Source: Synergistales bacterium (lineage in GTDB: Bacteria; Synergistota; Synergistia; Synergistales; 79-D21). Taken from it: a stretch of 10,748 bases of DNA. Each line of letters begins with the position of its first letter. The stretch's first letter is position 1. The notes under the pieces are model-generated. The model saw only the letters and a list, made by a program, of their open reading frames with translations, was not told where the DNA came from and did not search any database. This document shows positions 1 through 10,748 of the stretch, piece after piece. Both the position numbers and the translations under genes were made by a program. Where the stretch lies: contig JADLKH010000005.1 in the NCBI GenBank assembly GCA_015657435.1, positions 1-10,748 on the forward strand, written 5' to 3'.

Positions 1-653
1 AAGTCCGACTTCTGAAAAAACCGAGAAGCGTCCCCCGACATTCTCTGGCACGGGCAAAGTCGCCATTGCGCCCCTAGAAGCCAGATCCCGAAGAATTCCC
101 TTCTTCGGATCCGTGATGAAAACAAAATGCGAGAGGGCTTTTTCCTCTCCAAGCCGCTGGCGCATCGCTTCGAAAAACCAGAGGAAGATCGCGATTGTTT
201 CGGCGGTTGAGCCGGACTTGCTCACGACGACGAACGCGGTCCTTTCCGGGTCTACACAATCCCATATTCCGGACAGACTCAACGGGTCCGGGTTATCCGC
301 CATGTAAAAGCGTGGGGATTTGCGCTCCTTCCTGGTCAGTTCGTTGTGGAAAGGGTGCAGGAAGGCGTTGTTCAACATGAGGTTCCCAAGAGCCGACCCC
401 CGATTCCGACCTGTACGATGGAATCGTAATCCTCCAGTTTGCGGGCAACGAGACGGAGCGGTTCGATATCCGCATAGGGCAGCTTCATCCAGCCGTACCC
501 CATCGTGCCGCGTTCGGAATGTATCCTCAGGTGTGACTCCGCTTTTCTCAGGGACTTTTCCAGAAGCATGATCTCGCTTTCAGCGATCAAAGGAAGCCTG
601 GTCCCGTCTCCGATGACGCCTCCAAGCCCGATCGTGAAAAGATTCGTGCTCAT
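1..653 (-). CDS. pgi: Glucose-6-phosphate isomerase, 5' part, partial and frameshifted
   Basis: Interconverts glucose-6-phosphate and fructose-6-phosphate in cytosolic glycolysis/gluconeogenesis. The ATG at 653 has a GGAGG Shine-Dalgarno 7 nt upstream. The first 85 codons are clean and reach the sugar-phosphate loop, expected as GIGGSALG (residues 83-90). The frame then breaks: the run of G on the coding strand (plus-strand CCCCC, 397-401) is one base short, so the literal reading gives GIGGRLLGTSC and a stop near 372. Restoring one G reopens the frame to the window edge and gives recognisable isomerase sequence: SALGNLMLNNAFLHPF, the SIS-domain phosphate loop VVSKSGSTAET, and VGGRFSVFSEVGL with the conserved active-site Arg, next to position 1. 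About 217 residues are present; the family is usually 440-550. Either a homopolymer sequencing/assembly error or a fresh pseudogene. The family call is firm and the intactness is not. Confidence 0.88.
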
Positions 654-680
654 GATCCCGCCTCCAGGTATGAAAAATCG

Positions 681-709
681 AGAAGGGGCTGGTCAAGCCA
701 GCCCCTTCT
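681..709. terminator. Strong hairpin between glutaredoxin gene and pgi
   Basis: A perfect 12-bp stem (681-692 with 698-709, core GAAGGGGCTGG) closes a 5-nt loop. The plus strand has a T run directly after it (709-714). On the minus strand, the direction of both flanking genes, the stem is followed by CGA and then five T. It lies 23 nt past the glutaredoxin stop, so it probably terminates or attenuates that transcript before pgi. Orientation is uncertain because the better T run faces the strand with no obvious gene. Confidence 0.7.
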
Positions 710-732
710 TTTTTCGATCGGCAATGTCCCTC

Positions 733-981
733 TTACCCCTTGATGATGCCGGCGTCCTTTAAAGCCCCTTCGATTTCGGAGGCATTGAACCCGACAATGA
801 ACCGTTCGTTGACCTGGGTTACCGGAACTCCCATCTGTCGCGTCTTCTTCACCATTTCCATGGCCGCCTCGCGGTTCGCGCTAACGTCCACTTCCTCGTA
901 GGCAACGTTCATCTGTTTTAGGAAATCCTTGACTTTCGTGCACCACGGACAGGTAGGGGTTGAATAGACCTTGACGCTCAT
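733..981 (-). CDS. Glutaredoxin-family thiol-disulfide protein (YruB-like)
   Basis: An 82-residue cytosolic thioredoxin-fold protein, the normal length for a stand-alone glutaredoxin. It opens with beta strand VKVYSTPT and the redox motif CPWC at residues 11-14, followed by a helix TKVKDFL. The cis-proline loop GVPVT has Pro at 53, and GFN at 64-66 occupies the position of the glutathione-contacting turn. CPWC with this length fits the YruB-type glutaredoxin-like proteins common in anaerobes; family membership does not prove use of glutathione. The start at 981 is chosen over an in-frame ATG at 1017 because GGGAGGAG sits 7-8 nt upstream and homologues begin at this beta strand. It has its own promoter (1036-1063) and is divergent from the NADH/NADPH operon. 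It probably reduces protein disulfides; its target is unknown. Confidence 0.9.
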   Translation of the reverse strand: MSVKVYSTPTCPWCTKVKDFLKQMNVAYEEVDVSANREAAMEMVKKTRQMGVPVTQVNERFIVGFNASEIEGALKDAGIIKG

Positions 982-1035
982 GGTTGATCTCCTCCCGATT
1001 GAAAGGTCGGTCCGCATTTATATACCACTATGGGG

Positions 1036-1063
1036 ATATTATCACAGTGTAAATGATTGTCAA
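1036..1063 (-). promoter_or_regulatory. Sigma70-type promoter for the glutaredoxin gene
   Basis: On the minus strand there is a perfect -35 TTGACA (1058-1063), a 16-nt spacer and TAATAT (1036-1041) preceded by TGA, an extended -10. Predicted transcription starts near 1029, leaving a leader of about 48 nt before the ATG at 981. The -35 is embedded in the exact inverted repeat GATTG-T-CAATC (1055-1065), and the spacer holds TCACA-G-TGTAA (1043-1053, one mismatch). Either could be an operator. Confidence 0.65.
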
Positions 1064-1163
1064 TCTTATCCGTACCATCGCTGATTCTTACCCTCCTAAA
1101 GATCGGCCCTTTCTCGCTTTATTTCACAGGTGGTTCGGTTTTTTCGAAAACGCGTTTAAAGGT

Positions 1164-1169
1164 TATAAT
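1164..1169 (+). promoter_or_regulatory. Candidate -10 box of the nuoE-like operon
   Basis: A perfect TATAAT lies 81 nt upstream of the nuoE-like ATG, in the AT-richer part of the intergenic space. The -35 is poor: T-rich sequence around 1139-1146 with no TTGACA match. Transcription would start near 1175, inside the small inverted repeat CGCC-GATT-GGCG (1172-1183). A weak -35 suggests either an activator or simply that this call is wrong. Confidence 0.4.
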
Positions 1170-1171
1170 GT

Positions 1172-1218
1172 CGCCGATTGGCGGATGAAACGGGAGGGAG
1201 CCATCACGCTTCCCCCCG
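1172..1218 (+). other. Two inverted repeats in the nuoE-like operon leader
   Basis: CGCC-GATT-GGCG (1172-1183) sits at the predicted transcription start and may be an operator or the 5' end of the RNA. Downstream, CGGGAGGGAG (1191-1200) pairs with CTTCCCCCCG (1209-1218) over an 8-nt loop, with one A-C mismatch and one G-U pair. No T run follows, so it is not a terminator. The Shine-Dalgarno at 1236-1243 is outside the stem. I do not recognise a known riboswitch. The remainder of 982-1249 shows no gene I can support. Confidence 0.3.
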
Positions 1219-1249
1219 AATTTGTGTGGAGTGGCAAGGAGGGAAACCA

Positions 1250-1738
1250 ATGCCGACGTTGGTCATGGGTAAACCCGAGCTCGAAGAGGCCTTGCGACCG
1301 ATCATCGAGCGCTACAAGGGTGGCAAGGGAATCACGATCCCGCTTCTGGCTGCGGTCCAGGAAAAGATCGGGTACCTTTCCGGCGAGTCGCTGGACTTCC
1401 TGTCGAGGGAAATGGATATTCCCGCGGCGGAACTGTTCGGTGTCGCGACGTTCTACGCGATGTTCCGGCTCCAACCGCAGGGGAAACACGTCGTCCGGCT
1501 TTGTCGGGGAACGGCCTGTCATGTCCAGGGTTCGCTCAGGGTGGGCGAGATGCTCCAGCGCCATCTGAAGATTGAAGAGGGGCAGACGACCGAAGACGGC
1601 CTGTTCACTCTCCAGTTCGTCGCCTGTTTGGGCTGCTGCAGCCTCGCACCGGTCATGATGATCGACGACGAGGTGCACGGCCGTCTTACCCCGGAAAAAG
1701 CAGTCGCGATTCTCGAAACCTATCGCAAAGCCGACTGA
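1250..1738 (+). CDS. nuoE: NuoE/HydC/HndA-like [2Fe-2S] subunit of an NAD(P)H oxidoreductase
   Basis: A 162-residue subunit, typical for NuoE/HndA. Residues 1-75 form the helical region (RYKGGKGITIPLLAAVQEKI, then the family motif VATFYAMF at 65-72). Residues 80-150 are a thioredoxin-fold ferredoxin with ligands C85, C90, C126 and C130, the canonical C-x4-C and C-x3-C pairs (CRGTAC and CLGCC), plus an extra Cys at 129. In complex I and HydABC this [2Fe-2S] cluster lies near the NuoF FMN and accepts or stores electrons. The ATG at 1250 has AAGGAGGG 6 nt upstream; the in-frame ATG at 1178 lacks this and adds unrelated residues. It is first of three co-directional genes, 15 nt before nuoF. No membrane complex I genes lie nearby, so it belongs to a soluble enzyme rather than respiratory complex I. 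Confidence 0.93.
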   Translation: MPTLVMGKPELEEALRPIIERYKGGKGITIPLLAAVQEKIGYLSGESLDFLSREMDIPAAELFGVATFYAMFRLQPQGKHVVRLCRGTACHVQGSLRVGEMLQRHLKIEEGQTTEDGLFTLQFVACLGCCSLAPVMMIDDEVHGRLTPEKAVAILETYRKAD

Positions 1739-1753
1739 TTGGAGGTGTCCCAG

Positions 1754-3505
1754 TTGTCCAAGATGATCGTCAAGGTTGGCATGTCCAGTTGCGGAATCGC
1801 GGCCGGCGCCGGCCCGGTGTATGAGAAGATCGAGTCTCTCGTTAAGGAACGCGCAGATATCGAATTGAAGAAGGTGGGCTGCATCGGCCTTTGCTTTCAC
1901 GAACCTCTCGTGGAAATCGAGAAGGACGGAAAAAGCACGGTTTACGGCGAGGTGACGCCGGAATCCGTTGAAGCCATCCTGGAAGGAAAAGACCAGTTCA
2001 CCCCGATCCTCAGCCATGCCCAGGAAGCCCCGGAGAATTCCATGATGGGAAAACAGGTGCGCATCGTTCTCCGGAACTGCGGGCAGATCGACCCGCAGAA
2101 GATAGAGGAATACGAGCAGCGAGGCGGGTACGACTCGCTACGGAAAGCCCTGTCTGGGATGTCCCCGGATGAGGTGATCGACGAGGTCCTGAAAAGCGGA
2201 TTGCGAGGGCGCGGAGGAGCCGGCTTCCCGACCGGGATGAAGTGGCGGTTCGCGCACGACGCCAAGGGCGACTCGAAATATGTCGTCTGCAACGCCGATG
2301 AAGGCGACCCCGGAGCCTTCATGGACCGGTCCGTCCTAGAGGGCGATCCCCACAGCGTGATCGAAGGAATGGCGATCTGTGGCTACGCCATCGGAGCCGC
2401 ACAGGGGATCATCTATTGCCGCGCGGAATACCCCCTGGCCATCAAGCACCTGAACAAGGCGCTGGAACAGGCTCGCGCAAAGGGATACCTCGGACAGAAG
2501 GTTCTCGGCAGCGATTTCTCATTCGACATCTACATCAAGGAAGGCGCCGGCGCCTTCGTATGCGGCGAGGAAACCGCCCTTATCGCCTCCATCGAGGGGA
2601 AACGCGGGATGCCGCGCCCCAGGCCGCCCTTCCCGGCGCACAAAGGAGTTTTCGGCAAACCCACGAACATCAACAACGTTGAAACTCTGGCCAACATCCC
2701 ATGGATCCTGGCGAATGGACATGCGGCCTTCGCTCAGTACGGGACCGAAAAAAGCAAGGGGACGAAAGTGTTCGCCCTTGCAGGCAAAATCAAGAAGGGC
2801 GGCCTTGTCGAGGTTCCCATGGGAATGCCCATCAGGGACGTCATTTTTGAAATCGGCGGAGGCATCCAGAACGACAAGGCATTCAAGGCCGTCCAGATGG
2901 GAGGGCCCTCGGGAGGGTGCATCCCCGCCGAGAAGATCGACACTCCCGTCGACTACGAGTCGATCACCGCTACCGGAGCCATCATGGGATCCGGCGGGAT
3001 GGTCGTCATGGACGAAGGAACCTGCATGGTCGACGTCGCTCGTTTCTTCCTGTCCTTCACGCAGAAGGAATCCTGCGGGAAATGCCCCTTCTGCAGGATC
3101 GGAACGAAGCGCATGCTTGAAATCCTGACCCGTATCTGCGAAGGCAAGGGAAAGATGGAAGATCTTGAAACGCTGAAGGAACTCGCTCCCCAGATCAAGG
3201 ACGGTTCCCTTTGCGGCCTCGGACAGACGGCTCCCAATCCCGTCCTGACGACCCTAAAATATTTCGAGCACGAATACATCGCACATATCCGGGACAAGAA
3301 ATGCCCGGCGAAAGTCTGTTCAGCCCTCATTCACTACACGATCGATCCGGCGAAATGCATCGGGTGCACGAAGTGCGCCCGGGCCTGCCCCGTCTCTGCC
3401 ATAACCGGGGAAATCAAGAAACCCCATCTGATCAACGACGACATCTGCGTCCGCTGCGGACAGTGCATGAAGGCCTGTCCCGTCAGCGCCATCAGCGTGG
3501 AGTAA
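1754..3505 (+). CDS. nuoF: NuoF/HydB/HndC-type FMN- and NADH-binding Fe-S subunit
   Basis: A 583-residue flavoprotein expected to exchange electrons with NAD(H). Domains: residues 3-85, thioredoxin-like [2Fe-2S] domain (SSCGIAAGAG, then GCIGLC; only C13, C43, C47 visible); 110-320, FMN/NADH core with RGRGGAGFPTGMKW (151-164), CNADEGDPGAF (179-189) and EGAGAFVCGEETA (263-275); about 335-395, SLBB region; C441, C444, C447 (SCGKCPFCRIG) and C487 for the N3-type [4Fe-4S] cluster; H511, C517, C522 in HIRDKKCPAKVC; and a C-terminal 2[4Fe-4S] ferredoxin (C535/538/541/545 and C565/568/571/575). The N- and C-terminal extra domains mark the HydB/HndC type rather than plain NuoF. The start is TTG at 1754, 6 nt after GGAGGTG (1741-1747); ATG at 1763 is the alternative, two residues... 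beyond the Ser-Lys pair. The stop is 9 nt before the next gene. Confidence 0.93.
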   Translation: MSKMIVKVGMSSCGIAAGAGPVYEKIESLVKERADIELKKVGCIGLCFHEPLVEIEKDGKSTVYGEVTPESVEAILEGKDQFTPILSHAQEAPENSMMGKQVRIVLRNCGQIDPQKIEEYEQRGGYDSLRKALSGMSPDEVIDEVLKSGLRGRGGAGFPTGMKWRFAHDAKGDSKYVVCNADEGDPGAFMDRSVLEGDPHSVIEGMAICGYAIGAAQGIIYCRAEYPLAIKHLNKALEQARAKGYLGQKVLGSDFSFDIYIKEGAGAFVCGEETALIASIEGKRGMPRPRPPFPAHKGVFGKPTNINNVETLANIPWILANGHAAFAQYGTEKSKGTKVFALAGKIKKGGLVEVPMGMPIRDVIFEIGGGIQNDKAFKAVQMGGPSGGCIPAEKIDTPVDYESITATGAIMGSGGMVVMDEGTCMVDVARFFLSFTQKESCGKCPFCRIGTKRMLEILTRICEGKGKMEDLETLKELAPQIKDGSLCGLGQTAPNPVLTTLKYFEHEYIAHIRDKKCPAKVCSALIHYTIDPAKCIGCTKCARACPVSAITGEIKKPHLINDDICVRCGQCMKACPVSAISVE

Positions 3506-3514
3506 GGAGGAGCG

Positions 3515-6500
3515 ATGACCATGGAACGCAACGTGAAGGTCATCCTTGACGGAAAGGAAGTCTACGGATACGGCGGGCAGAAAATCCTCGATCTTTGTGC
3601 GGAATGCGCGGTCGAAATTCCCACTCTCTGTTATGACCCGCACCTTTCCGTGCATGGGGGCTGCTCGGTTTGCCTCGTTGACGTCAAGGGTGCAAAAAGC
3701 CTCGTCAGAGCCTGTGCTTCGACCATTTCCCCGGGGATGGTCATCCAGACCGACAGCGACCGGGTCCGGAAAGCCCGAAAACTAGCACTTGAACTGCTGT
3801 TCTCCGACCATGTGGGAGATTGCCGTCCCCCCTGCACCCTGACCTGCCCGGCGCACGGCGACGTGCAGGGATATGTCAACTTGGCCGCACAGGGCAAGTA
3901 CGAAGCCTCCCTTGCGGCGCTTCACCAAAACATCACCCTGCCCGCCTCGATCGGCCGCGTCTGCCCCGCTCCCTGCGAGGAGAAATGCCGCCGGAACTTC
4001 GTGGACGAGCAACCGATCTCCATCCGCGAGATCAAGCGTTTTGTCGGAGACTGGTGCCTTTTGAACGATGCCCTTTCGCCTGTCCCGGTCATCGAGGAAA
4101 ACCGGCGCAAGGTTTCCATTGTAGGCGGCGGTCCTTCCGGCGTATCGGCCGCGTATTTCCTCAGGCAGAAAGGCTACACCGTCACTCTTTACGAAAAGGA
4201 AGCGGATCTCGGTGGCATGATGCGCTACGGGATCCCCGACTACCGACTGCCGCGCGAAGTTCTCCGCCGAGAGATCCAGTGGATCGTCGACCACGGCGTG
4301 CAGGTCCGTCACGGCATGGCCCTGGGAAGGGATTTCACGATCGAACAGCTCAGGGACGAAAACGATGCCGTCCTGCTGGCCATGGGCTGCTGGAAATCCT
4401 CCCCGATGAGGGTCGCCGGAGAGGACCTGCCCGGAGTCATCGGCGGGATTGATTTCCTGTACAGGGTCAACAATGACCTCCCAACCGAAATCGGCAAAAA
4501 GGTTGCCGTCATCGGCGGCGGCAACACCGCAATGGATGCATGCCGCTGCTCGCTCCGGCTCGGAGCCGAAGCCGTCACCATCGTTTACCGGAGAAGCCGC
4601 GAGGAAATGCCGGCACAGGATATCGAGATCCAGGAAGCCATGGAAGAAGGCGTCGAGTTCCTCTTCCTCATGGCTCCCAAAGCCGTGCTCGGAAACGGGA
4701 AGGTCGAAGCCCTCGAATGCGAGAAAATGATGCTTGGAGAGCCCGATGCTTCCGGTCGAAGGAAACCTTTGCCGACCGGGGAAATCGTACGCCTCGAAGT
4801 CGACACGATTATCGCTGCGATTGGCCAGCAGATTCGCTTTGACGGCCTCCCGGGGACGCTGCACGACGGGAAGAAGATGATCGTCGACGATGATTATGCC
4901 ACTCCACTGCCGGGCGTTTTCGTCAGCGGAGACCAGCAGACCGGACCGGACATCGCCGTTCGTGCCATCGGCAATGGCCATTACGCTGCCGAGTCGATCC
5001 ATGCCTACATCACGACGGGGAAGCCGAAGAAACCGTTCGAGTACGACGTGGTCCGGACCGATCTCGGCCCCGAAGATTTTGCCGACAAGGAGAAGCAGCC
5101 TCAGGAAAAGGTTCCTCATGTCGATCCGAAGCTTCGAGTGGAGATGAAATTCCGGGAATACAGCCCCGGCCTCAATGAAGAGCAGCTCTTGCGGGATGCC
5201 AAGCGGTGCATGGAGTGCGGGTGTTCGGACCTGCATGAGTGCAGACTCCGCCGTTACGGGCAAAATTACGGGGTCCAACCCGAACGGGTCGCTGGAGAAC
5301 ACCTGCCGCGGTCAGTCGAAGCGAATGCCTTCTACGACCGGAACATGGACAAATGCATCCTTTGCGGTCGTTGCGTCCGTACCTGCGACGAGATCGCAGC
5401 CTTCCACGCCATCGACTTCACAAAGAGGGGATTCGAGGGTTTGATCGACACGGAATTCTGGAAGCCGATCGACGAATCGGAATGCACGTCCTGTGGTCTT
5501 TGCGTGCAAATGTGCCCCGTCGGTGCGCTGACCGAAAAGAGGACATCACGGTGGCCCCACAGCGAGAAGCCGGTCCTCGTTCCGACGGCCTGCTCCGAGT
5601 GCCCCGTCGGATGCGATCTCGTCCTGAATCTCGACAAGGCCTCTTCCAGGCTCGTCCGAGTGACGACGGATCTCGACCTTCCTTCCTCACCCACTCAGGG
5701 CAACAGCTGCAGGGCCGGCCGAGCGCTCCCGTCGACAACCACAGAGGGACGCCTCGGGTCTCCCTCCCTCCAGGTGGACGGCAAACGTTTCGATTGCGAC
5801 TGGGAAAAAGCCGTCGACCATGTTTCCTCCAGACTGGAATCCTTGCTTGCGGCTTACGGCCCGGAGTCGTTCCTGGTGCTTGGCAGCGGGTGCCTCAGCA
5901 ATGAAGAGGCCACGGCGCTTCGCCGTTTCTCAGAAGGTTGTCTGTGCAACGCTTCAACTTGTTTCCTCGGACTCGATGCTTCCGCAGGAGCCTGGACGAC
6001 CGTCCGGGAAAAATGGGGAACGGACTGGAAACCCGAAGACTATGGCGACCTCAACTCCTCCGACGCTTACCTTCTTCTGGATACCGACACCGACAACCGC
6101 CAGCCGGTTCTAACCTCCTTCATCCGCAAGGGGATGCGTCAACGCCATGCCTCTGTCGTCAGCATCGGGAACATGCCCGAAAAGCTTTCCCGCGGAGACG
6201 GCGTTTTCCTTCATCCCCGTCCCGGGACCGAGATCCATCTCGTTAGGGGCATCATGGCTGCCGTTCTTCGGACAAAAGGATCTGTCTTGCCGGAGATCCT
6301 CTCGGACTACACCCCCTCCAAGGTTCAGTCCCTTACCGGCGAGGATCCCGAGTCCGTCACCCGCGCCGCCTCGCTCTTGCTCTCGGCCAAGAACCTCTCG
6401 ACGCTTTTCGGGGGAATCTTTGCCGCCCATTCCGACCTCACGGCGGAAACCCTTCCACTCCTGGAAATGCTGAAGCAACGCCGTGTGCTTATCCTTCACG

Positions 6501-6904
6501 AGGCGGCAAACGCACATGGGCTTCTCTCTCTCAACGCGAATGGGACCACGCCTGAAGACGTCCAAGTATCCATTCGTTCGGGCAAGGTCAAAGCCCTTTT
6601 GCTTGCCGGGGTTTCACCCGACAAGACCGGGCTCTCTTCAACGGACCTGTTGGGACTGGAATTCCTTGCCAGCTTTGTCGCAAAACCGGCGGCAACCGAG
6701 CTCGAGCAGGCGGAAGCCCTTCTCCCCATGGCCTATTGGACGGAACGGGAAGGCTCCTTTTCGAGCCTGACGGGACAGCTCCATCATCAGGCGGCGGCGG
6801 CTGTACCCTACGGGAAGGCACTCAGCCTAGTCAGGATTCTCTCGAACCTATCCCGCAAAATGAAATCGAATCTTCCGGCCGTTGAAGCTGCGCTGCGTCC
6901 TTAA
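3515..6904 (+). CDS. NuoG-like / GltD(NfnB)-like fusion: Fe-S FAD NADPH oxidoreductase with molybdopterin-type domain
   Basis: An 1129-residue soluble multi-cofactor protein. In order: residues 1-80, NuoG-type [2Fe-2S] domain (C39, C50, C53, C67, canonical spacing); 99-195, GltD/NfnB N-terminal Fe-S region (H99, C103, C107, C111; then GRVCPAPCEEKC with C150, C154, C158); 199-500, FAD fold (GGGPSG 204-209; GIPDYRLP 239-246), NADPH fold (GGGNTAMD 334-341; VYRRSREEMPA 357-367, the usual 2'-phosphate site) and the FAD closing motif GVFVSGDQQ; C565, C568, C570, C576, an extra Cys group; 614-667, NuoG-like 2[4Fe-4S] ferredoxin; C693, C696, C700, C732, molybdopterin-family [4Fe-4S]; 745-1129, molybdopterin-oxidoreductase-like fold. 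That last domain has no Cys/Sec active-site motif and stops before the dinucleotide-binding domain. AAGGAGG supports ATG 3515; ATG 3521 is possible. It likely links NADPH to NADH via the upstream subunits. The exact reaction is unknown. Confidence 0.88.
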   Translation: MTMERNVKVILDGKEVYGYGGQKILDLCAECAVEIPTLCYDPHLSVHGGCSVCLVDVKGAKSLVRACASTISPGMVIQTDSDRVRKARKLALELLFSDHVGDCRPPCTLTCPAHGDVQGYVNLAAQGKYEASLAALHQNITLPASIGRVCPAPCEEKCRRNFVDEQPISIREIKRFVGDWCLLNDALSPVPVIEENRRKVSIVGGGPSGVSAAYFLRQKGYTVTLYEKEADLGGMMRYGIPDYRLPREVLRREIQWIVDHGVQVRHGMALGRDFTIEQLRDENDAVLLAMGCWKSSPMRVAGEDLPGVIGGIDFLYRVNNDLPTEIGKKVAVIGGGNTAMDACRCSLRLGAEAVTIVYRRSREEMPAQDIEIQEAMEEGVEFLFLMAPKAVLGNGKVEALECEKMMLGEPDASGRRKPLPTGEIVRLEVDTIIAAIGQQIRFDGLPGTLHDGKKMIVDDDYATPLPGVFVSGDQQTGPDIAVRAIGNGHYAAESIHAYITTGKPKKPFEYDVVRTDLGPEDFADKEKQPQEKVPHVDPKLRVEMKFREYSPGLNEEQLLRDAKRCMECGCSDLHECRLRRYGQNYGVQPERVAGEHLPRSVEANAFYDRNMDKCILCGRCVRTCDEIAAFHAIDFTKRGFEGLIDTEFWKPIDESECTSCGLCVQMCPVGALTEKRTSRWPHSEKPVLVPTACSECPVGCDLVLNLDKASSRLVRVTTDLDLPSSPTQGNSCRAGRALPSTTTEGRLGSPSLQVDGKRFDCDWEKAVDHVSSRLESLLAAYGPESFLVLGSGCLSNEEATALRRFSEGCLCNASTCFLGLDASAGAWTTVREKWGTDWKPEDYGDLNSSDAYLLLDTDTDNRQPVLTSFIRKGMRQRHASVVSIGNMPEKLSRGDGVFLHPRPGTEIHLVRGIMAAVLRTKGSVLPEILSDYTPSKVQSLTGEDPESVTRAASLLLSAKNLSTLFGGIFAAHSDLTAETLPLLEMLKQRRVLILHEAANAHGLLSLNANGTTPEDVQVSIRSGKVKALLLAGVSPDKTGLSSTDLLGLEFLASFVAKPAATELEQAEALLPMAYWTEREGSFSSLTGQLHHQAAAAVPYGKALSLVRILSNLSRKMKSNLPAVEAALRP

Positions 6905-6936
6905 AGAGGCCGGCGAAGACAGCGCCAACAGACTCA

Positions 6937-6982
6937 AAAAGGAAAGAGGCAGGCCGCAGAAGCGGCCTGCCTCTTTCCTTTT
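6937..6982. terminator. Bidirectional terminator between convergent genes
   Basis: A perfect 21-bp stem (6937-6957 with 6962-6982) closes on an AGAA loop, GC-rich at the tip and A/T at the base. It begins 33 nt after the fusion-gene stop and 19 nt beyond the EF-G stop on the other strand. The A run at the left base (6936-6940) gives a T run for minus-strand transcripts, and the TTTT at 6979-6982 serves plus-strand ones. Confidence 0.92.
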
Positions 6983-7000
6983 GCCCATTCATTCGCCCTT

Positions 7001-9085
7001 CTAGTTTTCTTCTTCTTCTTCCACCTTGTGAGCGGCGATGACTTTTTTCGCGATTTCTGCCGGCACTTCTTCATAGTGGGAATAACTCATCGTGAAGGAT
7101 CCCCTGCCGGAGGTCATCGATCGGAGGATGATCGCATAACGGAACATTTCGGCAAGGGGAACCTGGGCCTTGACGACCTGAAGCCGTCCCCGGCTGTCGA
7201 TCCCCATAATCCTGCCCCTGCGGCTGTTGAAATCCCCCATGACATCCCCGAGGTATTCCTCGGGAACGACGACTTCAGCGTTCATGATCGGTTCGAGAAG
7301 AATCGGGGAGGCCTCGACGATCCCTTTCTTGAAAGCCATCGAAGCCGCGATCTTGAAGGCCATTTCGGAAGAGTCGACATCGTGGTAGGAACCGAACACA
7401 AGGGCTGCCGTGAAATCAACGGTCGGGAACCCGGCAAGGACGCCTTTCACGAGGGCTTCCCGCAACCCTTTTTCCACAGCGGGGATAAATGATTTCGGAA
7501 CCGCTCCGCCCACGACCTTGTCCTGGAACTCAAAACCGGCACCACGATCGCGCGGGGAGAACTCGATGACCGCATCCCCGTACTGCCCTCTTCCACCTGT
7601 CTGTTTCTTGTATTTCCCCTGTGCCTTGGAGGGTTTCTTGATCGTCTCCCTATAAGGAACCTTCGGAGTCCCCGTTTCGAGCTCAACCCCGTAGCGGTCC
7701 TTGATCTTCGATAGAACGATGTCGAGATGAACGTCGCCCATACCGGAAAGGACATTGTCTCCCGTCTCGGGGTTCTTTTCGAAGTGCAGCGTTGCGTCTT
7801 CTTCCCTCATCCGATGGATCGCGTTGCTGAGCTTGTCTTCGTCAGCGCGGCTCTTGGGCGTGACGGCCACGCTGTAAATAGGCAGGGGGAACTGAATGGG
7901 GGGGAATTGGAAGTTTGTCCCCTTAACGCCAAGCGTGTCTCCGACCGTGGTCGTGTGAAGTTTCGGAATAACGACGATATCTCCGCAGACGACTTCCTTC
8001 TGGTCTTCGCCGTCCTTCCCCTTCATGAACTTGAAGGCGCTGATTCTTTCCTCTTCGCCCTTGTTGACGTTGAAGAGAGTCTGGTCGCTTGTGAGGCTCC
8101 CGGAGAAGACCCGCAAGAAGGACAACTTGCCCACGTACGGATCGACCATGACCTTGAAGCAGAGCGCAGAAAAAGCCCCGGCCGGGTTGGGTTCGATTTT
8201 GACCGTTTCACCGTTTTTCCCAGCTTCCCTCGCAGCCATGTCAAGCGGAGAAGGCATGACGTCCGCCAATACATCCAGCAGCTGAAGGATGCCGACATTT
8301 GCCGTGCTTGAACCGGGGACCGCCGGGAACAGGGTCCTTTTCGCAACAGCCAGCCTCAAGGCTTTGGAAAGTTCCTCGCCGGAAATCTGCTCTCCATCCA
8401 AATAGCGCATCATCAACTCGTCATCCGCTTCGACGATGCGCTCGACCAGAGCTTCGCGAGCCGACTGCGCCTCTTCCGTCATTTCGGCCGGGACGTCGCC
8501 TTCGGTGAATTCCTTGCTTCCGTCTCCCTTGTAGAGATAGGCCTTGCCTCCGAGAACATCGACAACGCCCTTGAAAGACGCCTCTTTACCGATGGGGAGG
8601 TAGAGGGGAACGACCTTTTCGCTCATGTACTTGCGAAGTTCACCCACAGTACGCTCGAAATCGGCGTTTTCACGGTCCATTTTGCTGACGAAGAAGAGAA
8701 CCGGAATTTGGAAATCTTCGGCAAATTCCCAATCCTTTTCCGTTTGGACCTCGACCCCGTGCACTCCGCTGACGACCACAACAGCGGAATCCGACACCCT
8801 CATGGAGGATCTGACATCACCGATAAAGTCGGCAAATCCGGGTGCATCCAGGGCAAAAAGAGTTTTTCCCTTGTGGCGGAGCGTCGCAACGGCCAGATTA
8901 ATTGAAATTTGCCGCTTCTGTTCTTCGGTCGTGAAGTCCGTGGTTGTCGTTCCGTCCTCTACTTTTCCCAGGCGCCCGATGGCCCCTGTATCGAAAAGCA
9001 TGGCCTCCGTCAGCGACGTCTTTCCGGCGCCACCGTGGGCCACGATTGCAAAGGTTCTGACATCAACCGGATTGCGCATCCCCAT
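7001..9085 (-). CDS. fusA: Elongation factor G paralogue (EF-G-2 type translational GTPase)
   Basis: A 694-residue full-length EF-G-fold GTPase that would act on the ribosome in translocation or recycling. The G domain has P-loop AHGGAGKT (16-23), switch I ending KRQISI (57-62), G3 DAPGFADF (80-87) and G4 SKMD (134-137). Classical EF-G has AHIDAGKT, RGITI, DTPGHVDF and NKMD, so this copy departs at each motif, including Phe for the catalytic His. Domain IV is present (GGRGQYGDAVIEF; VPKSFIPAVEKG), as is domain V (LLEPIMNAEVVVPEEYLGDVMGDFNSRRG, here cited by its ends LLEPIM and GDFNSRRG). The tail is five Glu from a (TTC)5 run at 7007-7021. The gene is not next to rpsL/rpsG/tuf, supporting a second EF-G rather than the str-operon copy. 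ATG 9085 has AGGAGGT about 9 nt upstream; ATG 9079 with AGGAG 6 nt upstream is equally plausible. Confidence 0.92.
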   Translation of the reverse strand: MGMRNPVDVRTFAIVAHGGAGKTSLTEAMLFDTGAIGRLGKVEDGTTTTDFTTEEQKRQISINLAVATLRHKGKTLFALDAPGFADFIGDVRSSMRVSDSAVVVVSGVHGVEVQTEKDWEFAEDFQIPVLFFVSKMDRENADFERTVGELRKYMSEKVVPLYLPIGKEASFKGVVDVLGGKAYLYKGDGSKEFTEGDVPAEMTEEAQSAREALVERIVEADDELMMRYLDGEQISGEELSKALRLAVAKRTLFPAVPGSSTANVGILQLLDVLADVMPSPLDMAAREAGKNGETVKIEPNPAGAFSALCFKVMVDPYVGKLSFLRVFSGSLTSDQTLFNVNKGEEERISAFKFMKGKDGEDQKEVVCGDIVVIPKLHTTTVGDTLGVKGTNFQFPPIQFPLPIYSVAVTPKSRADEDKLSNAIHRMREEDATLHFEKNPETGDNVLSGMGDVHLDIVLSKIKDRYGVELETGTPKVPYRETIKKPSKAQGKYKKQTGGRGQYGDAVIEFSPRDRGAGFEFQDKVVGGAVPKSFIPAVEKGLREALVKGVLAGFPTVDFTAALVFGSYHDVDSSEMAFKIAASMAFKKGIVEASPILLEPIMNAEVVVPEEYLGDVMGDFNSRRGRIMGIDSRGRLQVVKAQVPLAEMFRYAIILRSMTSGRGSFTMSYSHYEEVPAEIAKKVIAAHKVEEEEEN

Positions 9086-9110
9086 CTCCTAACGACCTCC
9101 TCGTTTCTTC

Positions 9111-9127
9111 ACGCGGCCTTGCCGCGT
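9111..9127 (-). other. Stem-loop in the EF-G paralogue leader
   Basis: ACGCGGC (9111-9117) pairs exactly with GCCGCGT (9121-9127) around a 3-nt loop. It falls between the predicted EF-G promoter and its Shine-Dalgarno, about 10 nt upstream of the latter. There is no T run, so it is not a terminator; a role in mRNA stability or translation control is possible. Confidence 0.35.
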
Positions 9128-9146
9128 TGTGAATCGCACTCTTGCT

Positions 9147-9155
9147 ATTCTAACA
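9147..9155 (-). promoter_or_regulatory. Candidate extended -10 promoter for the EF-G paralogue
   Basis: The minus strand reads TGT then TAGAAT (one mismatch to TATAAT) with the TG of an extended -10. No good -35 lies 16-18 nt upstream. The predicted leader is about 55 nt. It directly follows the candidate gatB terminator, whose T run supplies part of the TTTTGT sequence. Confidence 0.4.
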
Positions 9156-9183
9156 AAAGGGCCGCGTTTTTCCGCCACCCTTT
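9156..9183 (-). terminator. Candidate imperfect terminator after gatB
   Basis: Immediately after the gatB stop the minus strand has AAAGGG-TG-GCG, a GAAAAA loop, then CGC-GG-CCCTTT and TTTTGTT. The stem contains a 2x2 internal loop, so it is weaker than the other hairpins in the window. Position and trailing T residues fit a terminator for the gatAB transcript. Confidence 0.4.
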
Positions 9184-9186
9184 CTT

Positions 9187-10653
9187 TCAACAACCCAGAA
9201 ATCGAGAAAGGGTTTTTGCGACTTCTTCCGGATCGGCTTGCCCTCTCGCTTCTCGCATGATTTGGCCGCAAAGGAATCCCCGTTTCTTCCCCTTCGGATC
9301 TTTCCCCGATTTGATTTCCTCCACTGCGGAGCTTTCCTTCTCGAGAACCCGCTCGATGACGTTCCGCAACCTTTCTCCAGTCAGCCTGCCGGAAGGCGCC
9401 CCGATCTTTTCGAGTGCTTCCAGAGCAGTCAATCCTTCGGCAACCATCCGGTCGAACACCGTTTTTGCCAAGGTCGTCGACAGTTCTCCACGATCAATCT
9501 TCACCAACAAGGGAGATAGGTTCTCAGCCGGAACGCCAAAATCTTCTATCCCTATCCGCTTTTCGTTGAGGACTCGCAGAACCTCGGTTCGAATCCAGTT
9601 GGCCGCACGTTGCGGGTCGGCTCCTTCCCTGACGCAATCCTCCACGTAGCGGGAAAGGCCAGGAAGTTCCGTCAGGACCGCCGCATCCTGCAGGGAAAGG
9701 CCCCAGTCCGTCACAAACCTTTCCTTGAGAATCCACGGCATTTCAGGCATAATGTCCCTCTGCTTCTCCACAAAACCGTCGGGAAGGACAAGCGCGGGCA
9801 GGTCGGGCTCAGGAAAATAGCGGTAATCATGGGCTTCCTCTTTTCCGCGGGTCCCGCAGGTCAGGCCGTTGCCATCATCCCAGTGTCTCGTCTCCTGTCG
9901 GACGCTTTCTCCCTTCCGGATCAGATCCGCCTGCCGGGCAATTTCGTAATCAAGGGCTCTCTCCAAGGCCCGCAATGAATTCATGTTCTTGATCTCGACC
10001 TTTGTGCCAAGTTTCCCGTCGGCACCGGTCAACGAAACGTTCGCATCCACCCTGAGCGATCCCTTTTCCATATCCCCGTCGGAAACGCCGAGGTATCGCA
10101 CCAGTTGACGCAGGGTCGCCACGTATTCCCTCGCTTCCGCTGGGGTCGAGATCTCGGGTTCCGATACGATTTCCATCAGCGGAACCCCACCCCGGTTATA
10201 ATCCACCAGAGAGTATTCCGAATGACCCAGTCTGCCATCCGCTGCGGAGTGCACCAACTTCCCGGCGTCCTCCTCGAGATGGAGGCGGGTTATCGGAATC
10301 TCTTTGCGGTTCTCACCTTCGCCTATGGGAAGGGCCCCGCCCTCAGCAAGAGGCCGGTCGTACTGGCTGATCTGGTAGGCTTTCGGCAAGTCGGGGTAAA
10401 AATAGTTTTTCCTGTGGAAACGGGTCGACTTGCCCACCCGTGCTCCAAGGGCCAGGGCGGTCCTCACGGCATATTCGACAACCCGGCCGTTGATCACAGG
10501 AAGCGATCCCGGTTGTCCGAGACAGACGGGGCAGACATGAGTGTTTGGGACCGCCCCGATATAGTCCGTCGAGCATGCGCAAAAGAGTTTGCTTTCGGTG
10601 GCCACCTGGACATGGATTTCCAGGCCGATCACCGGAGATCCGGGTTGTCTCAC
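9187..10653 (-). CDS. gatB: Aspartyl/glutamyl-tRNA(Asn/Gln) amidotransferase subunit B
   Basis: A 488-residue GatB, normal length. With GatA and GatC it phosphorylates and amidates misacylated Glu-tRNA(Gln) and/or Asp-tRNA(Asn) in the cytosol. The family opening PVIGLEIHVQ is at the N-terminus, followed by the zinc-binding Cys pairs FCAC and CPVCLG, then RKNYFYPDLPKAYQISQYD, RLHLEEDAGK, SLVDYNRGGVPLMEIVSEPE and DYRYFPEPDLP in the kinase/amidation core. The C-terminal YqeY-like tail ends GFLCGQIMREARG. The start is GTG at 10653, 7 nt after GGAGGTG; an in-frame ATG at 10677 lies inside the end of gatA and has no such site. It begins 2 nt after the gatA stop, so the two are probably translationally coupled. 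Presence of GatCAB implies that Gln-tRNA or Asn-tRNA is made indirectly. Confidence 0.97.
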   Translation of the reverse strand: MRQPGSPVIGLEIHVQVATESKLFCACSTDYIGAVPNTHVCPVCLGQPGSLPVINGRVVEYAVRTALALGARVGKSTRFHRKNYFYPDLPKAYQISQYDRPLAEGGALPIGEGENRKEIPITRLHLEEDAGKLVHSAADGRLGHSEYSLVDYNRGGVPLMEIVSEPEISTPAEAREYVATLRQLVRYLGVSDGDMEKGSLRVDANVSLTGADGKLGTKVEIKNMNSLRALERALDYEIARQADLIRKGESVRQETRHWDDGNGLTCGTRGKEEAHDYRYFPEPDLPALVLPDGFVEKQRDIMPEMPWILKERFVTDWGLSLQDAAVLTELPGLSRYVEDCVREGADPQRAANWIRTEVLRVLNEKRIGIEDFGVPAENLSPLLVKIDRGELSTTLAKTVFDRMVAEGLTALEALEKIGAPSGRLTGERLRNVIERVLEKESSAVEEIKSGKDPKGKKRGFLCGQIMREARGQADPEEVAKTLSRFLGC

Positions 10654-10655
10654 GC

Positions 10656-10748
10656 CTATACACCTCCAAAGGCACATGCCGGTTTTCCCAGTACGCGCTC
10701 AACCGCTTCTGCTGCAGCCAGGAGCGTTCCTTCTCCCCACTGCGGTCC
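10656..10748 (-). CDS. gatA: Glutamyl-tRNA(Gln) amidotransferase subunit A, C-terminal end (partial)
   Basis: The last 30 codons of an open frame entering from the right edge and ending in TAG at 10656-10658. The visible tail starts GPQWGEGTLLAAAEAVERVL, matching the conserved GatA C-terminus (GP-x-F-x-E-x-x-LL followed by an amphipathic helix). GatA is the glutaminase subunit of GatCAB and supplies ammonia. The stop lies 2 nt before the gatB GTG and the gatB Shine-Dalgarno is inside the gatA coding end. Only about 30 residues are seen, but gene order agrees. Confidence 0.85.
   Translation of the reverse strand, partial: GPQWGEGTLLAAAEAVERVLGKPACAFGGV

Follow-up and report, generated by a model that had tools for sequence, protein, structure and literature searches.

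The window, meaning the whole 10,748-nucleotide stretch analysed here (a Synergistales bacterium, assembly GCA_015657435.1, contig JADLKH010000005.1, positions 1 to 10,748), contains one composite gene that we identify, with a probability of about 0.92, as stnC, also called Nfn-BfuA, in a stnA-stnB-stnC operon (Table 1). Judged from its sequence, the gene would encode the subunit that reacts with NADPH in a soluble electron-bifurcating transhydrogenase; we also infer co-transcription of the three genes and the quaternary structure of StnABC, which in the known enzyme is a tetramer through StnC. The purified Stn complex is described as reducing NADP+ with NADH and ferredoxin (Kremp 2020, PMC7483475), the Sporomusa ovata structure has been solved and its StnC described as a GltD/NuoG fusion (Kumar 2023, PMC10482914), and the same enzyme, under the name Nfn-Bfu, has been placed also in Synergistetes (Schut 2022, PMC9304861). 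Because of that placement, and because Stn clusters are listed for the Synergistetes Acetomicrobium mobile (1071 amino acids, aa) and Thermovirga lienii (1241 aa; PMC7483475), both the family and its presence in Synergistota are already published. The window itself matters little, as one more Synergistota lineage for a known, solved enzyme, with valine in place of C114 in all 47 aligned proteins of the phylum; more is at stake in a sister family whose StnC may carry a live formate dehydrogenase (Fdh) tail.

Domain order, cofactor sites and proposed electron route

The stnC frame is open over all 1129 residues, there is no N in the window, and the Pfam families follow one another as Fer2_4 (5-81), Fer4_20 (103-182), Pyr_redox_2 (199-488), Fer4_Nqo3 (609-673) and Molybdopterin (746-1114). 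An earlier note, made from the letters alone, had read NuoG-like parts flanking a GltD/NfnB-type unit for flavin adenine dinucleotide (FAD) and NADPH in a single frame, and the domain search that it proposed confirms this composite order. The layout is that of Stn/Nfn-Bfu (Bfu type 1), with a NuoG head, a GltD/NfnB insert, a NuoG dicluster and an FdhF-like tail in one chain. The BfuBC core adjoins it, consisting of StnA and of a StnB with a thioredoxin-like domain, a flavin mononucleotide (FMN) site and a C-terminal 2x[4Fe-4S] part.

Compared with all solved structures by phmmer, StnC has 9bov_A and 8oh5_C (StnC of S. ovata) as its top two chains (E 2.5e-225 and 1e-206), is collinear with the latter (residues 7-1106 against 4-1079), and finds its next match in NfnA 9n5u_A at 557 bits. 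StnB matches 9bov_B (873 bits), 8oh5_B, which is StnB (854), and 9n5u_B (848), while StnA matches 7t2r_C (180), 9n5u_C (162), 9bov_C (155) and 8oh5_A, which is StnA (144).

Within the phylum, StnC matches at E <= 1e-100 occur in 56 of 185 genomes, one of which (G156; G, L, C and f denote genomes, loci, contigs and families) matches over the GltD part only, leaving 55. Eight of these were left out of the alignment, as fragments (L019, L043, L044, L056) or otherwise (G068, G075, G124, G133), so that 47 Synergistota proteins (L039 and L041 among them cut by contig ends) stand beside 8oh5_C and 9bov_A in 49 rows. The cysteines of all seven cluster sites are present in every row, including those of the dicluster (C614/617/620/624/657/660/663/667). 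Grouped into clusters by homology to published StnC, the motifs add up to one [2Fe-2S] and six [4Fe-4S] sites, the same total as in the published protein, and two nucleotide-binding glycine motifs lie at positions 204 and 334; the sites predicted earlier (one FAD, one NADPH, one [2Fe-2S], about six [4Fe-4S]) are thereby borne out. K174, which corresponds to K170, the unusual ligand of S. ovata StnC, and R244 (R239 there) are unchanged throughout the alignment, in 47 of 47 Synergistota proteins as well as in 8oh5_C and 9bov_A. Residues 500-605 are not a plain linker, since they carry the conserved CxxCxCx5C motif. A survey of proteins with the same domain order and of their neighbours, also proposed in the note, yields these 47 rows and, in the window, L047 and seven sister-family loci, stnABC beside an EF-G-like gene.

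In the S. ovata structure, NADPH reduces the FAD of the GltD unit, and electrons pass via clusters C7, C6, C5, C4 and C3 of StnC and B1 of StnB to FMN; StnAB splits them between NAD+ and ferredoxin, and the tail clusters C1 and C2 lie off the path and matter for assembly (PMC10482914). Activities have been measured for the S. ovata enzyme and for the archaeal Thermococcus sibiricus form (the latter in PMC9304861), and by analogy we infer activity and direction for StnABC of the window. NADPH would reduce the FAD of StnC, from which single electrons would travel through the three-cysteine-plus-lysine cluster to the CxxCxCx5C and His-Cys3 clusters (which of these two is C6 and which C5 is our assignment) and would reach StnB by way of the [2Fe-2S] cluster and one centre of the dicluster. 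There FMN, with the adjacent StnA and StnB clusters, would divide them reversibly between NAD+ and ferredoxin. The FAD of StnC would not be the bifurcating flavin. During fermentation the enzyme would probably run, on balance, from NADH and reduced ferredoxin to NADPH for biosynthesis.

Known relatives and competing assignments

The closest characterised system, S. ovata StnABC (PDB 8oh5/8oh9; PMC7483475, PMC10482914), shares the three genes, the domain order, the ligand cysteines, the lysine ligand, the FAD arginine and a dead Fdh-like tail; the window chain differs in its valine for C114, its length (1129 against 1172 aa) and a strongly diverged tail. The earlier note had allowed that a close homologue with a defined function might exist, and S. 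ovata StnC is that homologue; its description as a conserved but poorly characterised type holds for the conservation and is outdated for the rest, StnC having been purified and solved (PMC7483475, PMC10482914). The complex of PDB 9bov/9bp5 (chains of 1178, 584 and 176 aa) is the best sequence match of StnC and StnB and, unlike the window chain, has cysteine at the C114 position. It probably comes from another phylum, and we take its source to be Caldicellulosiruptor, whose StnC length in Table 1 of PMC7483475 equals the 1178 aa of chain A. Nfn-Bfu/Nso of Thermococcus (PMC9304861; PDB 9n5u/9n5v, typed by chain names) shares the NuoG head, GltD unit, dicluster order and BfuBC core but has a shorter BfuA (a 963-aa chain), and T. 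sibiricus BfuA is described as lacking the cysteines of one cluster.

Some findings weigh against the identification as StnABC. The C114 position is valine (V117) in the window and in 47 of 47 Synergistota rows, the best StnA chain is HydC of NiFe-Bfu (7t2r_C) ahead of 9bov_C and 8oh5_A, and likeness to S. ovata StnC drops sharply in the final third. Loss of C114 halves the S. ovata activity, and two other homologues have V or I there; C114 is helpful, not strictly conserved and not taken as defining, whereas K170 is strictly conserved (PMC10482914).

A rival reading takes the protein for a non-bifurcating reductase like Nso/SfrAB, which would use NADPH to reduce sulfur or another substrate. 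This reading draws on NsoC of T. litoralis, a protein named for sulfur reduction that unites these two domains and shares 40.6% identity with S. ovata StnC (PMC7483475). We consider it very unlikely, as T. sibiricus Nfn-Bfu bifurcates and the non-bifurcating homologues are described as without the clusters in question (PMC9304861).

Less probable still is an FdhA subunit of Fdh-Bfu with an added NADPH module that goes on oxidising formate. The tail is homologous to FdhA, with 107 bits to 6tg9_A beside its PF00384 match, and an intact-looking Fdh site is kept in sister-family relatives. Yet the stretch CVKGR reads CRAGR in the window, with loss of a catalytic lysine, and neither the selenocysteine (Sec)/Cys-His pair nor the arginine of PLRGQNN is present. 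Cys-His-Arg are the residues named as catalytic in formate dehydrogenase (PMC8965080). Neither PF01568 nor PF04879 is among the Pfam hits of the window StnC, its genome has a separate Sec-containing Fdh-Bfu-like gene (the two also coexist in G010 and G055), and the S. ovata complex, when purified, did not oxidise formate (PMC7483475). Membership in Fdh-Bfu is thus rejected for want of the Sec/Cys-His-Arg site and PF01568. In StnC of the window, then, the C-terminal domain is catalytically dead and, by analogy with S. ovata, likely has a part in assembly.

That the composite frame is an artefact of assembly is scarcely credible: a second, 100% identical stnC lies inverted within a 15.15 kb repeat at the contig end, but stnC is continuous in many other genomes, which leaves only the copy number in doubt, not the fusion. 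The fusion is genuine because separately assembled records of the same genus hold it as a continuous frame, at 81% identity in G002 and 74% in G004 (and in G001 from residue 89 on). An assembly join of separate genes is therefore rejected, and the worry over a break near residues 95-110 or 500-560 is disposed of by this continuity and by the ligand cysteines aligned in the 47 Synergistota proteins.

Other family memberships were rejected as well. NfnAB (NfnI) has a GltD-type subunit with FAD and NADPH (5jca_L, 301 bits to StnC) but bifurcates at its FAD and has a Glu ligand at the FAD-proximal cluster; the window StnC has Lys at that ligand position and HydBC-like partners. In the genome, which comprises 2.68 Mb in 6 contigs and is 86% complete, just two frames apart from stnC have a match extending as far back as the Fe-S part of GltD (residue 103); at 924 and 679 aa, neither has the size of NfnB. 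Bifurcating HydABC and NiFe-Bfu/Fdh-Bfu share with Stn the HydBC-like core (StnAB) and NuoG-like parts but their third substrate reacts at an H-cluster, in separate NiFe subunits or in a working Fdh instead of at an NADPH/FAD site. For HydABC in particular, StnC has no H-cluster domain in Pfam: none of its 18 hits is an Fe-hydrogenase family, and FeFe models match best within the NuoG-like parts. NuoG of complex I is rejected on the GltD insert and on neighbours that comprise stnA, stnB and the EF-G-like and glutaredoxin-like genes.

A sister family with a formate dehydrogenase tail

In family f10, which belongs to the same order as the window lineage, all nine StnC-bearing genomes carry a longer chain, or its start where the contig ends. 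Six (G036, G041, G046, G050, G054, G184) have an in-frame TGA within CAHLUHS, the hybrid genes of G050 and G054 being cut by contig ends; G058 has a cysteine form, CARLCHS; and G013 and G022, at 1241 and 1243 aa, have lost the active site. The tail thus looks intact at loci L036-L041 and L057 and decayed at L034 and L035. The G041 chain, the sole f10 chain run through Pfam, matches PF00384, PF01568 and PF04879 (278, 106 and 49 bits) and keeps Fer4_20 and Pyr_redox_2. Since the 1241 aa of G013 equal the published length of T. lienii StnC, f10 is probably Thermovirgaceae.

Except for a doubt over G054, no gene of f10 other than the fused one matches FdhA closely. The other matches (E <= 1e-60, first 454 FdhA residues) are frames of 572-715 aa at 33-37% identity, which we take to be BfuA of NiFe-Bfu or the like. 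The doubt concerns a 352-residue FdhA fragment on another contig of G054, either the rest of the cut gene or a separate one. In a tenth genome, G029, FdhA is represented by a single piece of 670 residues where a contig ends, and StnC has no match at E <= 1e-100. No selenocysteine insertion sequence (SECIS) element reaches the Rfam gathering score in any of seven sources. The TGA is followed by a hairpin both in the G041 hybrid gene (z 0.49) and in the separate Fdh gene of the window genome (z -2.64), but only the latter beats shuffled sequences. All 11 genomes searched have a SelB match above the cut-off, as do 2 of 14 controls; the match does not discriminate, because genomes with decayed and Cys tails are among the 11.

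We propose, at even odds and from these sequences, that the BfuA chain of f10 would take in electrons at two catalytic sites, from NADPH at FAD and from formate at a molybdenum/tungsten-pterin, and pass them to a single FMN bifurcating core. Formate, NADP(H), NAD(H) and ferredoxin could then equilibrate within one complex, and the decayed members would show a live tail turning into a remnant like that of the window. The titles, abstract beginnings and passages of the open PMC literature searched describe no StnC (Nfn-BfuA) whose formate dehydrogenase tail is live. Fdh3 of Thermococcus onnurineus is the closest counterpart in function that was found: in it, Fdh is wired to an NfnB-like NADP subunit and ferredoxin is also used; it differs in having separate subunits, with no HydBC-like bifurcating core described in the excerpts of that paper (PMC8965080). 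If real, the f10 hybrids would be a four-substrate redox hub, not described in the consulted parts of the classification papers, and they make the origin of the dead tail testable. The survey for hybrids covered Synergistota; one broader contig scan returned three relatives, of the same genus by identity.

As to that origin, we favour a swap in which f10 acquired its tail from Fdh-Bfu. In the N-terminal tree, f10 lies within Synergistota StnC (support 100 for the 47-row clade, only 80 for the split between f9 and all others, f10 included), and in the tree of the first 330 C-terminal residues it lies with Synergistota FdhA, apart from the other Synergistota StnC tails. With the full 764-column tail and G054 left out, only 4% of 200 bootstrap trees group main-type FdhA into a clade that excludes f10. 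Over the dicluster stretch, f10 (three rows) averages 58.5% identity to FdhA (four rows) and 43.8% to other StnC (six rows), and along G041 the identity profile is mixed from about residue 600 and changes over near residue 680. Against a swap, a tree that unites every Synergistota StnC tail in one clade is not rejected by the approximately unbiased (AU) test (p 0.315, and 0.516 over a stretch of 165 residues), the dead tails have long branches, and those of f4 and f8 still read CVKGR and so fit an ancestral live tail. Such a tail, lost several times, stays a serious if less favoured alternative to the swap. Under the swap, parts of the Fdh-Bfu operon may have moved with the tail in G041, as its StnA and StnB are less like those of the window (54/65% identity, against 60/72% in G184) and two extra frames occupy its stnA-stnB interval.

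By eye, these frames (L071:1309-1893 and 1727-2242) encode a histidine-kinase-like ATPase and a thioredoxin-like [2Fe-2S] protein, the latter without a Pfam hit at 1e-8. Frames of these two kinds occur in Hyd operons. Elsewhere in the phylum, StnC of family f3 (L058-L069, L042) has a different, shorter tail, with about 960-1040 aa in total and a match to the window that ends at ~803-825. In family f9 (L029, L030, L031, L032) an in-frame TGA at residue 1078, near the C-terminus, is most likely a plain stop rather than selenocysteine.

Locus and genome context

Table 1. Annotated features of the window, positions counted from its first base
Feature	Position	Strand	Basis
Glutaredoxin-like gene, divergent, upstream of stnA	733-1017		named by eye
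stnA, NuoE/HydC-like, 162 aa, one [2Fe-2S]	1250..1738	+	PF01257 170 bits; ATG 1250 assumed, TTG 1178 possible
stnB, NuoF/HydB-like bifurcating subunit, 588 aa	1739..3505	+	PF01512, PF10589, PF01257, Fer4
stnC / Nfn-BfuA, 1129 aa	3515..6904	+	PDB 9bov_A 754 bits, 8oh5_C 692 bits
NuoG-like [2Fe-2S] domain, residues 5-81	3527..3757	+	PF13510 52 bits; C39/C50/C53/C67 in 49/49 aligned rows
HxxxCxxxCxxxC cluster motif H99/C103/C107/C111	3809..3847	+	Cys 49/49; H99 in 17/17 rows of alignment A1
FAD-proximal [4Fe-4S] site C150/C154/C158 + K174	3962..4036	+	Cys 49/49; Lys 47/47 Synergistota and both PDB rows
GltD/NfnB-type FAD + NADPH unit, residues 199-488	4109..4978	+	PF07992 111 bits; R244 (= R239 S. 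ovata) 47/47
CxxCxCx5C cluster motif C565/C568/C570/C576	5207..5242	+	49/49 rows
NuoG-like dicluster domain, two [4Fe-4S], residues 609-673	5339..5533	+	PF22117 39.5 bits; Cys 49/49
N7/FdhF-type [4Fe-4S] site C693/696/700/732 (tail clusters off electron path in S. ovata structure, PMC10482914)	5591..5710	+	49/49 rows
Vestigial formate-dehydrogenase-like (molybdopterin) domain	5750..6856	+	PF00384 69 bits
EF-G-like gene, convergent, downstream of stnC	7001-9085	- relative to stnC	Pfam

The three genes lie on one strand, with stnC starting 9 bases past the end of stnB. For stnB, whose predicted parts are an N-terminal thioredoxin-like domain, an FMN/NAD site and a C-terminal 2x[4Fe-4S] part, the start is TTG 1739 or, more likely, ATG 1763, which fits the solved homologues better; alignments to PDB homologues begin at residue 10. 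The arrangement of stnABC with a convergent EF-G-like gene is common to the window, the same-genus locus L047 and all seven of the nine f10 loci with visible neighbours (L057, L070-L075; in L073, stnA falls outside the sequence seen). PADLOC reports 0 defence families, and a defence role for the locus is rejected on that count.

The window, as C5:1-10748, sits inside an inverted repeat (C5:1-30663; L011, L012), so that its genes occur twice in the genome, the second stnC at C5:23762-27148 on the minus strand. The arms (1-15155 and 15511-30663) begin at contig base 1, stand 355 bases apart and are 99.947% identical; they differ by six gap openings, without a single mismatch. The repeat is likely an assembly fold-back, a real duplication being the less probable but tenable alternative.

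Among minor observations, two overlapping frames on the minus strand at 1-653 of the window read by eye as a single glucose-6-phosphate isomerase gene interrupted by a frameshift near 372-378. Elsewhere in the genome, L013 (C2:572001-592000) holds adjacent operons that appear by eye to encode a NiFe-Bfu hydrogenase and a Sec-containing Fdh-Bfu, and a molybdenum cofactor (Moco) riboswitch (RF01055, 64 bits) lies at L013:996-1115, just upstream of the first. L015 (C1:290000-305000) has, at about 5112-11459 on the minus strand, what looks like a Wor-Bfu operon, with frames for HydC, HydB, a short BfuA, a 4Fe-4S protein and a tungsten aldehyde oxidoreductase. The operons of L013 and L015 were named by reading their frames and by analogy with Schut 2022 (PMC9304861). 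Finally, two near-identical genes at L014:3304-5331 and 16166-18661, by eye flavin oxidoreductases in fusion with a GltD-type unit, adjoin xanthine-dehydrogenase-like genes, the first of the pair being apparently damaged in its second half.

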